A stretch of DNA of 64,000 nucleotides. Origin: Anaerolineales bacterium (lineage in GTDB: Bacteria > Chloroflexota > Anaerolineae > Anaerolineales > Villigracilaceae). The stretch covers positions 1-64,000 of the forward strand of contig JADZCC010000010.1 in the NCBI GenBank assembly GCA_020851785.1. Direction: 5' to 3'. Made by a program: the position numbers and the translations under genes. Shown one piece after another: positions 57,020 through 60,928 of this stretch; the first letter of the stretch is position 1; each line of letters starts with the position of its first letter. The notes under the pieces were generated by a model. The model worked only from the letters and a program-made list of their open reading frames with translations, searched no databases and was not told the origin of the DNA.

Positions 57020-58759
57020 TTACTTCTTCTTCCCGCCCTGCACCATTTGCCGGGCGCTCTGGAGCAGTTCATGCGCCGAGCGGAGCGTGCCTTCGCCCAC
57101 TTCGCCGAGCATTTGCGAAAGCTCCAGCAAACGCGGCTCGCCGTCCAACGGCTCGACACGCGTCAACGTGCGGCCCTTGTCCACTAATTTTTGAACCTGA
57201 TAATGCTGGTCGCCAAAGACGGCCAATTGCGGCAGATGCGTCACGCAAAAAACCTGATGCGTGCGCGAAAGGTTCCACAGTTTTTGGCCCACCACCATGC
57301 CCACGCGCCCGCCAATCCCCTGATCAATTTCATCGAAGATTAAAGCCGGGACTTCATCCGCGCGGGCCATGACGTTTTTGAGGCCCAACATCAGGCGCGA
57401 AGTTTCGCCGCCCGAAGCGATCTTGGCCAGCGGCTTCAGCCCTTCGCCCGGGTTGGGGGCGACGAGAAACTCCACGCGGTCGAATCCGTTTTGGTCGAAG
57501 GCGATGCGCGTTCCATCTGCCAGCGGCGCGCCGTTCACATCTGGTTTGGTTTGGAAGTCCACGCCAAATTGCGCCGAAGCCATCTTCAAGTCGTCCAATT
57601 CCAACTCAATGCCTTTGCTCATGGTTTGCGCGGCGGCTTTGCGTTTTTCCGTCAGCGCGTGGCCCTGCCGGCCAAGTTTTTCCAGCAATTTGGCTTCTTC
57701 CAATTCCAGTTCGGCGATGCGATCCGCCGCGCCGGTGATCGTCTCCAATTGTTTGCGCGCGTCGGCGCCATAAGCCAGCGCCGCCGAAATACTGCCGCCA
57801 TATTTGCGCGTCAGCAAATGAATCAAATTCAAACGTTCTTCCACATGGTCCAAACGCTTGGGATTAAATTCAATTTCATCCAGATAGCCGCGCAAGCCGT
57901 GAATGATTTCCGAAATTGTATCCAGCGCTTCGTCCGCCTGGTCGGCCAACTCCCTTTGGCCCTCGTCAATTTTAGCCAGCGCGGTTAAAGCCTGCGCGGC
58001 CTGGCCGAGCAAGTCGGTGGCGGCGGGCGTTTCCGGCGAGCCTTCTTCCAGCACGGCCAAAGCCTCTTGCGCGTTCTGCGCCAAAGACTCAGCGTTCGCC
58101 AGCCGGTCGCGTTCTTTGCGTAGCTCTTCGTCTTCGCCGAGTTTCAATTGCGCGTCTTCAATTTCTTCGGCCTGATACGTCAGCGTTTCGATGCGGCGGT
58201 TGGCGTCGGCTTGCGTTTTGCGCAAGGCGCTTAATTCATGGCGCAGAGTTAACAGCGTGTGATAGGTCTGCCGGTACTCTATCAGCGGCTTGGAAACTTC
58301 GGCGTAGCGATCGAGCAGGCCGAGGTGGGCGCGCGGATCGAGCAGGGAGAGATGTTCGGCCTGCCCGTGGATATCAATCAACAAGGCGCCCAATTCCTTA
58401 AGCAAGCCCACGTTCACCGTGCGCCCATTGACGCGGGCTACACTGCGCCCCTCTTTGCGGACTTCGCGCATCAGCACGACATAATTGGGATCGTCCATTA
58501 ACTCTTCGCGATTTAAGACTGCGTGCACCGCCTCTTTTTCTGGACCTTTGAGTTGGAACACGGCCTCAACAAAGGCGGCGTCTGAATCAGCGCGCACAAA
58601 GGCCGGGTCGGCTTTGCCGCCAATCAACATCACCACCGCGTCGAGGATGATGGATTTGCCCGCGCCGGTTTCGCCGGTGAGGATGATCAGCCCCGCGCCA
58701 AAGCGCAGGTCTAATTTATCAATGATCGCAAAGTTTTGGATGTGCAGTTCGGTCAGCAT
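57020..58759 (-). CDS. recN: DNA repair protein RecN
   Basis: MLTELHIQNFAIIDKLDLRFGAGLIILTGETGAGKSIILDAV; LASGGETSRLMLGLKNVMA; DEIDQGIGGRVGMVVGQKL. Confidence 0.97.
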   Translation of the reverse strand: MLTELHIQNFAIIDKLDLRFGAGLIILTGETGAGKSIILDAVVMLIGGKADPAFVRADSDAAFVEAVFQLKGPEKEAVHAVLNREELMDDPNYVVLMREVRKEGRSVARVNGRTVNVGLLKELGALLIDIHGQAEHLSLLDPRAHLGLLDRYAEVSKPLIEYRQTYHTLLTLRHELSALRKTQADANRRIETLTYQAEEIEDAQLKLGEDEELRKERDRLANAESLAQNAQEALAVLEEGSPETPAATDLLGQAAQALTALAKIDEGQRELADQADEALDTISEIIHGLRGYLDEIEFNPKRLDHVEERLNLIHLLTRKYGGSISAALAYGADARKQLETITGAADRIAELELEEAKLLEKLGRQGHALTEKRKAAAQTMSKGIELELDDLKMASAQFGVDFQTKPDVNGAPLADGTRIAFDQNGFDRVEFLVAPNPGEGLKPLAKIASGGETSRLMLGLKNVMARADEVPALIFDEIDQGIGGRVGMVVGQKLWNLSRTHQVFCVTHLPQLAVFGDQHYQVQKLVDKGRTLTRVEPLDGEPRLLELSQMLGEVGEGTLRSAHELLQSARQMVQGGKKK

Positions 58760-58762
58760 AGG

Positions 58763-59275
58763 TTAATGGGTCAGTTGGATTCCAGAAATCCGCGCATAGA
58801 CGGTAGGCGCGGCGATGACGACATAAATTCCGAGTCCGAGCAGGGCAAACAAATTACCGGTGAAAAATAAAAGCGCGGCGATGGGCAGAGCGCCAACGAC
58901 CACGCCCGCGGCGCAGGCCATGAACAAGATTTTGGAGCGGCGTTTTTTGATGGCGCGCAAAGCCAGGTTGCCGATGAAAGCACCCGCGCCGCCGCCCAAC
59001 GCCACGCCGACAAAGAGGATGTAAAAGCCGAGGAAACTGGCCGCCAACCCAACCAGAATGCTGGCAATCAGCGACAGCGCAAACGTGACGCCAAAGCCGA
59101 TCAAGGGATCGTACCAGACGGCGGTGTCGAAAGACTTTTCATGCTGGCGTACGCACTCTTTGCATAAATATCCGGTGGGCGTATGCACGGCGCAGGCGGT
59201 GCAAATATATCTTTCACAGCGCTTGCAACGCAGGGAAGTTTCGCGGGTGGGGTGAGCGTAACAAAAAGTAGTCAT
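58763..59275 (-). CDS. B-box-type zinc-ribbon plus multi-TM membrane protein
   Basis: CYAHPTRETSLRCKRCERYICTACAVHTPTGYLCKECVRQH followed by about four TM helices. Confidence 0.82.
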   Translation of the reverse strand: MTTFCYAHPTRETSLRCKRCERYICTACAVHTPTGYLCKECVRQHEKSFDTAVWYDPLIGFGVTFALSLIASILVGLAASFLGFYILFVGVALGGGAGAFIGNLALRAIKKRRSKILFMACAAGVVVGALPIAALLFFTGNLFALLGLGIYVVIAAPTVYARISGIQLTH

Positions 59276-59276
59276 C

Positions 59277-60140
59277 TTAGCGGGGCAATCCTAAAGAGTT
59301 TTCGTTCATGTGCGCGGTCAGGTTGCGATAAAAATAACCGGCGTCGCCAAAGCGCACAAATTGCGCGGTCACGTCCGCCGCGCGAATGTTGATCAGGTCG
59401 TCTTCGAGCAGGGGCGTGGGCGGCTGGCCATCTATGCTAATGATGGCGTTTTCGCCGTTGATCTTAATCGTCACTGAAGCGCCTTCAGATAACACCACCG
59501 CGCGATCCACCGATAGATGCGGCGCAATGGGAACCAGCAAAATGTTGCGTAGCTCCGGCGGCAAAATGGGCCCGCCCGCGGCCAGCGCGTACGCCGTGGA
59601 GCCGGTGGCCGTGGCGGCGATCAATCCGTCCGCCACATAGCTGGTTAATTGAAGGCCGTCCACAAAGGCGGTAAAGCGCACCGGACGCAAGTTCTGCCCG
59701 CGCCCCACCACCACTTCGTTCAGCGCGTTCCAGTTCCCAATTTCTGCGCCGCCACGCACATGGCTGGCGTTGAGCATCATCCGGTTTTCGATCCAGGCTT
59801 CGCCGTTGAATAATTTTTCAAAATAAGCGCGCCAGTCTTCGCGTTCGATCTGAATCAGAAAGCCAATGCGCCCGAGGTTTACGCCCAAAATGGGCAGGTT
59901 GGCCGGCGCGCATAAATGCCCGGCGCGGAGCATACTGCCGTCGCCGCCGACGACCACGAGCAAATCAAACTCGCCCTGTTGAACGCGTTTGCGTAAGGCT
60001 TCATCGTATAACGAGCCGCACGGGGCGACCACGCCTCTGGCTTTTAAATGCTCGGCAATGGCTTCGCCTTCGGCCAACGCTTCCAATTTTTTGGGGTAAG
60101 CGACGATCACCGGTCGTTGTGGAATAAAGGGCTTGGGCAT
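59277..60140 (-). CDS. nadK: NAD(+)/NADH kinase
   Basis: VVVGGDGSMLRAGHL, GVNLGRIGFLIQ, NEVVVGRG, DGLIAATATGSTAYALAAGGPI. Confidence 0.96.
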   Translation of the reverse strand: MPKPFIPQRPVIVAYPKKLEALAEGEAIAEHLKARGVVAPCGSLYDEALRKRVQQGEFDLLVVVGGDGSMLRAGHLCAPANLPILGVNLGRIGFLIQIEREDWRAYFEKLFNGEAWIENRMMLNASHVRGGAEIGNWNALNEVVVGRGQNLRPVRFTAFVDGLQLTSYVADGLIAATATGSTAYALAAGGPILPPELRNILLVPIAPHLSVDRAVVLSEGASVTIKINGENAIISIDGQPPTPLLEDDLINIRAADVTAQFVRFGDAGYFYRNLTAHMNENSLGLPR

Positions 60141-60168: not shown

Positions 60169-60687
60169 CTAGGCGAGTTTCTGGTCGCAAAGGTTGCGAA
60201 AGCCGCATCCTTTACAACGGGAAGCCTGCTCGTGCGAACGAGCGACCTCACGCTTGAGGTCGTCTTCCTTCATGTCGGCCAGCAGTTCAAATAAAGCGGA
60301 TTCCAATTCAGGGGTGTAGTCAATTGCAAAGTCGCGGTTTTCGTAATGGATGATTCCGTAGGGCGGGCGTTTGGCGTAAGTCTTTTCAACCAGCAGGCAA
60401 TAGGAAGCCAGTTGAAAGATGTGCGCGTCGTACGGCGCTTCGGGCGCGCGCCCGGATTTAACTTCCACGGGAATGAGTTGACCGTTCTTTTCAATTAAAT
60501 AATCGGGCTTGCCGGTCAAATCCAGCGCGGCGTAAAAGAGCGGCTTTTCCACTTTGCCCCAGCCGTGCGTATCCGTGTACACCACCCGCCCGCCGGGTAA
60601 ACCCGCAGATTTTTGCTGGCGGCCGGATTGGAAGAAAAAGATCAAGGCGAGGAGCAGGAGGACGAGCGCGAGGATGGGCGTAGTCAT
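60169..60687 (-). CDS. Cas4/Dna2-like PD-(D/E)XK protein, C-terminal half with N-terminal TM anchor
   Basis: TM ILALVLLLLALIFFF; GKPDYLIEKNGQLIPVEVKSGRAPEAPYDAHIFQLASYCLLVE; CKGCGFRNLC. Confidence 0.85.
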   Translation of the reverse strand: MTTPILALVLLLLALIFFFQSGRQQKSAGLPGGRVVYTDTHGWGKVEKPLFYAALDLTGKPDYLIEKNGQLIPVEVKSGRAPEAPYDAHIFQLASYCLLVEKTYAKRPPYGIIHYENRDFAIDYTPELESALFELLADMKEDDLKREVARSHEQASRCKGCGFRNLCDQKLA

Positions 60688-60691
60688 GGAA

Positions 60692-60928
60692 TTAGACGAC
60701 CTGCAGGGTGCAATAGGCGACCAGCAAGAGAACAGCCGCGAGAAACAGAATCAGGCCCACGGTCCGGGTGATGAGCGAAGCCAGGACCTGCCGCCCGTGC
60801 TTCTTATGCAATTCAGTCCCGGCCGAAAGCTCCGCCTGATTTTGCGAAACTGCGCCATTTTTTTTGTACCACCAGGCGCGACGACAATACAGGTAATTGC
60901 CAATGTCTGAAGAGCGGATGATGCGCAT
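60692..60928 (-). CDS. Cas4-like N-terminal half with C-terminal TM anchor
   Basis: MRIIRSSDIGNYLYCRRAWWYKKNGAVSQNQAELSAGTELHKKHG then TM VGLILFLAAVLLLVAYCTL. Confidence 0.7.
   Translation of the reverse strand: MRIIRSSDIGNYLYCRRAWWYKKNGAVSQNQAELSAGTELHKKHGRQVLASLITRTVGLILFLAAVLLLVAYCTLQVV

Follow-up and report, generated by a model that had tools for sequence, protein, structure and literature searches.

A Cas4-family protein of Chloroflexota encoded in two genes, each with a predicted membrane helix: a candidate membrane-held nuclease

Results

We analysed a 64,000-nucleotide (nt) stretch of DNA from an Anaerolineales bacterium of the Chloroflexota (assembly GCA_020851785.1, contig JADZCC010000010.1, positions 1 to 64,000), hereafter the window, in which two small neighbouring genes share out the residues of a Cas4-type nuclease. 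A sequence-only reading had drawn attention to these two co-directional open reading frames (ORFs), 4 nt apart, and both were confirmed on the minus strand. We refer to them as the N-half and the C-half:

60692..60928, minus strand: N-half gene, 78 amino acids; Cas4 N-terminal lobe followed by a C-terminal transmembrane helix (ATG at 60928, stop at 60692-60694)
60688..60691, minus strand: intergenic gap of 4 nt, from the N-half stop codon to the C-half start codon
60169..60687, minus strand: C-half gene, 172 amino acids; N-terminal transmembrane helix followed by the Asp/ExK/Gln core and three Cys (ATG at 60687, stop at 60169-60171)

It had been proposed that Cas4-type signatures are shared out between complementary halves and, indeed, matching profile segments and residues were found. 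The NCBIfam cas4 profile (TIGR00372) aligned with the C-half over profile positions 58-178 (E 3e-19, above the cut-off) and with the N-half over positions 2-47 (E 1e-5, below the cut-off). The Pfam profile Cas_Cas4 (PF01930) scored the C-half at 37.5 bits, the N-half at 16.7 and the halves joined in silico at 50.7; the C-half passes the curated cut-off in both Pfam and NCBIfam, and the N-half alone falls below it. Cys15 of the N-half stands at the predicted position of the first iron-sulphur (Fe-S) ligand and Gly37/His41 at RecB motif I, and the C-half carries Asp62, Glu75-x-Lys77 and Gln92-x3-Tyr96, followed by Cys158, Cys161 and Cys167. Over 17 diverse rows, Ser7, Cys15, Gly37 and His41 were invariant in the N-half, and the invariant residues of the C-half include Asp62, Glu75, Lys77, Gln92, Cys158, Cys161 and Cys167. 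A larger alignment (A4), built in two parts anchored by rows that span both genes, had the N-half Cys in 62/62 true N rows and the three C-half Cys in 63/63 rows, with the C-half Asp and Glu each kept in 59/63 and the Lys and Gln each in 61/63. As judged from these alignments, the catalytic and cluster residues of Cas4 are distributed over the two genes as complementary sets.

For a fold model, a four-letter codon (GTCT=V) served to join the genes, with Asn-Ser as linker, and the alignment took in 113 relatives, some of which span both genes. AlphaFold2 gave a confident model of the joined halves as a single linked chain (mean predicted local distance difference test score (pLDDT) 93.0, predicted template modelling score (pTM) 0.88), in which pLDDT reaches 93-98 over the 40 N-terminal residues and over the 25 C-terminal ones, the Cys module, and a long helix leads from motif I into the first membrane helix. 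A joint Cas4 fold was indeed what Foldseek recovered: the best solved match was the type I-C Cas4 (Protein Data Bank (PDB) 8d3l), with a template modelling (TM) score, normalised to target length, of 0.64-0.66 across about 265 columns, and further matches were, in order, Dna2, ACE1 and SSO0001. Residues, profile matches and predicted fold all assign the pair to the Cas4 family.

Each half contains one strongly hydrophobic stretch of 19 residues (Kyte-Doolittle (KD) 2.74 and 2.67), which puts a transmembrane helix at about residues 57-75 of the N-half (C-terminal) and about 1-19 of the C-half (N-terminal). Positive charge precedes the N-half helix and follows the C-half helix, a pattern consistent with a cytoplasmic location of both soluble lobes, and the helices are so positioned that they would give a two-helix hairpin when the halves combine. 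The single helix in each half and its flanking charges agree with the earlier suggestion of two membrane-anchored halves in a hairpin topology. The hydrophobic helix was present in all 114 N-halves, and the C-halves without it are single-chain Cas4s or two sequences truncated at a contig end. The 26 ordinary Chloroflexota Cas4s are single chains without the helix hairpin.

The division into two genes was found far beyond the window: several classes of Chloroflexota have it, as do plasmids from Bacillota and Planctomycetota. A single-sequence search with the C-half matched 58 of 201 Chloroflexota genomes, a few of the matches being ordinary single-chain Cas4s, as well as 67 loci in a genome collection that are Chloroflexota by title. 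Among the locus records with both halves, some of them from overlapping genomes, the halves were separate ORFs in 108/108, so that an uninterrupted gene is not the form seen in these relatives. The halves overlap or lie within 100 nt of each other (gap <=100 nt) in 70 of these 108 loci, and in 35 a whole gene stands between them, HEAT-like or encoding an L,D-transpeptidase. The HEAT-like gene, of about 210 amino acids, intervenes in about 33 loci (e.g. L077:3301-3930) and is present as a tandem duplicate in L056:2640-3937 and L072:2638-3912; a search of the genome to which the window belongs, run with no positive control, did not recover it at the threshold applied. In three genomes (G096, G037 and G152) the two halves do not share a contig.

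The small ORF is conserved together with its partner. Both halves occur in 54 of the 201 Chloroflexota genomes, the C-half only in 1, the N-half only in 1 and neither in 145 (Fisher P about 8e-47 for co-occurrence, uncorrected for relatedness), so that 54/56 genomes with either half have both. The genome with the N-half only (G062) is 82% complete. That with the C-half only (G022) has one ORF of 353 amino acids containing both halves and two central transmembrane segments (L143:7352-8410); the catalytic Asp is altered in this ORF, the sister genome G124 keeps the halves split, and the single ORF may be due to genuine fusion or to an indel. Purifying selection acts on both genes, with a ratio of nonsynonymous to synonymous substitution rates (dN/dS) of about 0.04-0.09 in close named pairs, synonymous sites being close to saturation in most pairs.

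A tree built on the catalytic core places 37 split members on one side of a branch and the 26 single-chain Chloroflexota Cas4s on the other (support 96/97), and the split members group mostly by host family. This pattern fits a split that arose once and was then inherited mostly vertically in Chloroflexota. A mobile-element or phage origin in this phylum was considered and rejected: with the C-halves of the window and of a Bacillus plasmid as queries, phage records gave no match and viral-contig scans none that was confirmed.

Outside Chloroflexota, the same pair was found on a Bacillus subtilis plasmid (L165: 4685-4930 and 4935-5423) and on the planctomycete plasmids of Paludisphaera (L166) and Singulisphaera (L168), the small gene again carrying the Cys and His and the large gene the remaining motifs. 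Plasmid annotation labels the C-half as 'Dna2/Cas4 domain' or 'PD-(D/E)XK nuclease' and the N-half as a hypothetical protein, and half of what is predicted to be a catalytic protein has therefore been overlooked. On the B. subtilis plasmid (L165:2342-5663) a gene for a DinG/XPD-type helicase (Helicase_C_2) lies upstream of the pair and an Hfq gene downstream; these genes form a possible helicase-nuclease set. On the planctomycete plasmids (L166:4514-7393, L168:1-1868) the pair adjoins an MmeI-like restriction-modification gene or an N6 DNA methylase gene.

The genes next to the pair in the window are:

59277..60140, minus strand: nadK, the next co-directional gene (name from the first reading, not profile-scanned)
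58763..59275, minus strand: B-box-like zinc-binding (zinc-finger) membrane protein, between nadK and recN
57020..58759, minus strand: recN (name from the first reading, not profile-scanned)

The order on the minus strand is N-half, C-half, nadK, B-box membrane protein, recN, which places all three neighbours downstream of the pair; the divergent neighbour is maf. This order is kept in many Anaerolineae relatives, a part of the phylum only. The pair follows rseP in Roseiflexus-like and other lineages (L119, L120, L127, L128) and dnaE in L107, and in L123 a C-half without a neighbouring N-half follows rarA. The role in DNA repair or uptake that had been read from the nadK-recN context was not established, that context being limited to part of the phylum and replaced elsewhere by rseP, rarA, dnaE or unrelated genes.

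The locus had also been described as having no CRISPR (clustered regularly interspaced short palindromic repeats), which is right for the window and wrong for the genome. Another contig, C97 (L140:429-8731), carries a type I-E-like cas operon that extends to the contig end and comprises cas3, cse1, cse2, cas7, cas5, cas6 and cas1, cas1 being named by profile and the others from gene order and appearance. No other Cas4 was found in this genome. To our knowledge, type I-E CRISPR makes no use of Cas4. A role for the pair as a CRISPR partner was rejected, since the cas operon is type I-E-like and lies on another contig. With nadK, the B-box protein, recN and maf as neighbours, the pair is not encoded with cas1 and cas2 and counts as a solo-Cas4, that is, a Cas4 family gene outside any cas locus.

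Discussion

Computation shows the split and its conservation, the near-perfect co-occurrence of the halves, their joint fold and their complementary residues. We consider it highly probable that the two genes encode subunits of one membrane-held nuclease of the Cas4 family (solo-Cas4 type), the nuclease activity being predicted from sequence and model. The small subunit would contribute the histidine of motif I and the first cysteine ligand of the Fe-S cluster; the active site (Asp/ExK/Gln) and the remaining three cysteines would come from the larger subunit. One transmembrane helix per subunit, located at the break point, would form a hairpin, which would keep the enzyme, once assembled, bound to the cytoplasmic membrane on its inner side. 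The Fe-S cluster may bridge both chains and so lock the heterodimer, and the enzyme would be expected to cut DNA, probably single-stranded ends, like other Cas4s. If true, an Fe-S site between two PD-(D/E)XK nuclease subunits would constitute an unusual control of assembly.

Several points weigh against this proposal. The joint model treats the halves as a single polypeptide connected by a two-residue linker and is not a prediction of a true complex. The poorer model of the C-half alone speaks for a joint fold (pLDDT 84.2 and pTM 0.70, with the three-Cys segment down to 62-40 and a TM score of 0.39-0.40 to the same type I-C Cas4), but this comparison is indicative, the control alignment being shallower (17 rows). 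Catalytic residues are gone clearly in L109 and L112 and partly in L106 and L143, and some members at least are therefore probably not nucleases. In the first two (L109:4352-5292 and L112:4422-5434, two genomes of one family) ExK and Gln are lost and all four Cys kept; these pairs are probable pseudo-nucleases with an intact metal site. Finally, the gene neighbourhood varies between lineages and points to no single function; because neighbours differ among lineages, the neighbourhood does not fix the function.

We know of no agreed function for Cas4-type nucleases outside CRISPR. Fixation at the membrane and division over two genes narrow the site of action and make the role testable. The two leading ideas are that the enzyme does housekeeping work on DNA at the membrane or that it restricts DNA entering the cell. 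Our own guess, to which we give somewhat less than even odds, is a chromosomal DNA-processing (housekeeping) enzyme that acts on DNA at the membrane. Tethering and splitting would keep the nuclease away from the chromosome. Slightly more tentative is the idea of a widespread enzyme whose active site and Fe-S cluster are completed, through the transmembrane hairpin, only where and when its subunits meet at the membrane, which would provide a safety catch for a nuclease acting on membrane-crossing DNA.

The pair might instead serve in defence, cutting incoming DNA (phage, plasmid or transforming) during membrane crossing, analogous to SNIPE with a different nuclease. SNIPE offers a precedent, being a nuclease tethered to the membrane by an anchor that protects the DNA of the host (PMC13190303), and a Cas4-like protein lowers plasmid transfer or maintenance in Synechococcus (PMC10653904). 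Furthermore, plasmid copies of the pair adjoin MmeI-type or N6 methylase genes. In Chloroflexota, however, the pair sits among housekeeping genes, its tree largely tracks host families, and neither a phage-record match nor a confirmed viral contig was obtained with the two C-half queries; we hold defence to be somewhat less likely than the housekeeping role.

Another explanation accepts the same two-part membrane protein and makes of it mainly a membrane-held Fe-S cluster, for sensing or as a structural DNA-binding module, in which nuclease activity would be minor or lacking. The four Cys are kept in all lineages, including those in which the catalytic residues decay, and an inactivated Cas4 serving as a viral nucleocapsid protein is described in the relevant passages of Hudaiberdiev et al. 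2017 (PMC5704561). Yet because 59-61/63 rows keep the catalytic residues, most members look active, and we hold this explanation to be improbable.

Less probable still is that the C-half is the working protein, either a membrane nuclease or a DNA-binding protein, and that the N-half, a small membrane protein in its own right, is kept beside it without entering its fold. The D/ExK/Q core does lie in the C-half, which is fairly well modelled alone (pLDDT 84), but the N-half retains the Cas4 Cys, Gly and His that the C-half lacks, the halves co-occur near-perfectly and are fused in one genome, and the Cys module is well ordered in the joint model only.

That a single gene was broken by sequencing error, frameshift or pseudogenising mutation is hardly credible: the ORFs are only 4 nt apart, jointly span one Cas4 profile and have a one-ORF counterpart in one relative, but this explanation is refuted because whole extra genes intervene in about 35 loci, and it is opposed by the separate ORFs in every two-half locus, by the three genomes with halves on different contigs, by purifying selection on both genes and by the recurrence of the arrangement in three phyla. 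Frameshift and assembly error were rejected on the intervening genes, the different contigs and the three-phylum conservation, and stop-codon read-through was rejected since the frames are in phase in only 12/74 close pairs.

Comparison with known systems

According to the relevant passages of Hudaiberdiev et al. 2017 (PMC5704561), solo-Cas4 is present and monophyletic in many Chloroflexi, and all Cas4s retain the catalytic motifs and four cysteines. The two-gene protein resembles solo-Cas4, as characterised in those passages, in its catalytic motifs, its four cysteines and its location outside cas loci, but differs in being encoded by two genes whose products each add a transmembrane helix, the insertion falling between the His of motif I and the Asp of motif II. 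The same passages make no mention of a split or membrane form, and neither a two-gene membrane Cas4 nor a 'split Cas4' was found in the literature searched, most subscription journals being outside its scope.

CRISPR-associated Cas4 (type I-C, PDB 8d3l) is the best fold match and its family profile, TIGR00372, is the one whose cut-off the C-half passes, whereas the pair is unlinked to cas1-cas2. Dna2, AdnAB/AddB, MGME1 and RecE-type PD-(D/E)XK nucleases have the fold class in common with the pair (Foldseek); unlike the pair, they have no membrane helices and consist of one chain or form a domain of a large helicase. Dna2 and AddB likewise have the layout of one N-terminal Cys and three C-terminal Cys. 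The Argonaute-associated ACE1 (PDB 9iab, 9iac) is, like the pair, a member of the Cas4 family outside CRISPR, and matches it in fold (E 2e-5), but it is a single chain; no argonaute gene turned up beside the pair, although no search aimed at argonaute was made. SNIPE (PMC13190303) resembles the proposed enzyme in having its nuclease domain anchored at the cytoplasmic face of the inner membrane, but it combines DUF4041 and a GIY-YIG nuclease in one protein and has no homology to the pair, neither half of which gave a Pfam match to DUF4041 or GIY-YIG. The two-gene organisation and the predicted membrane hairpin set the pair apart from these systems as an apparently undescribed form of Cas4.
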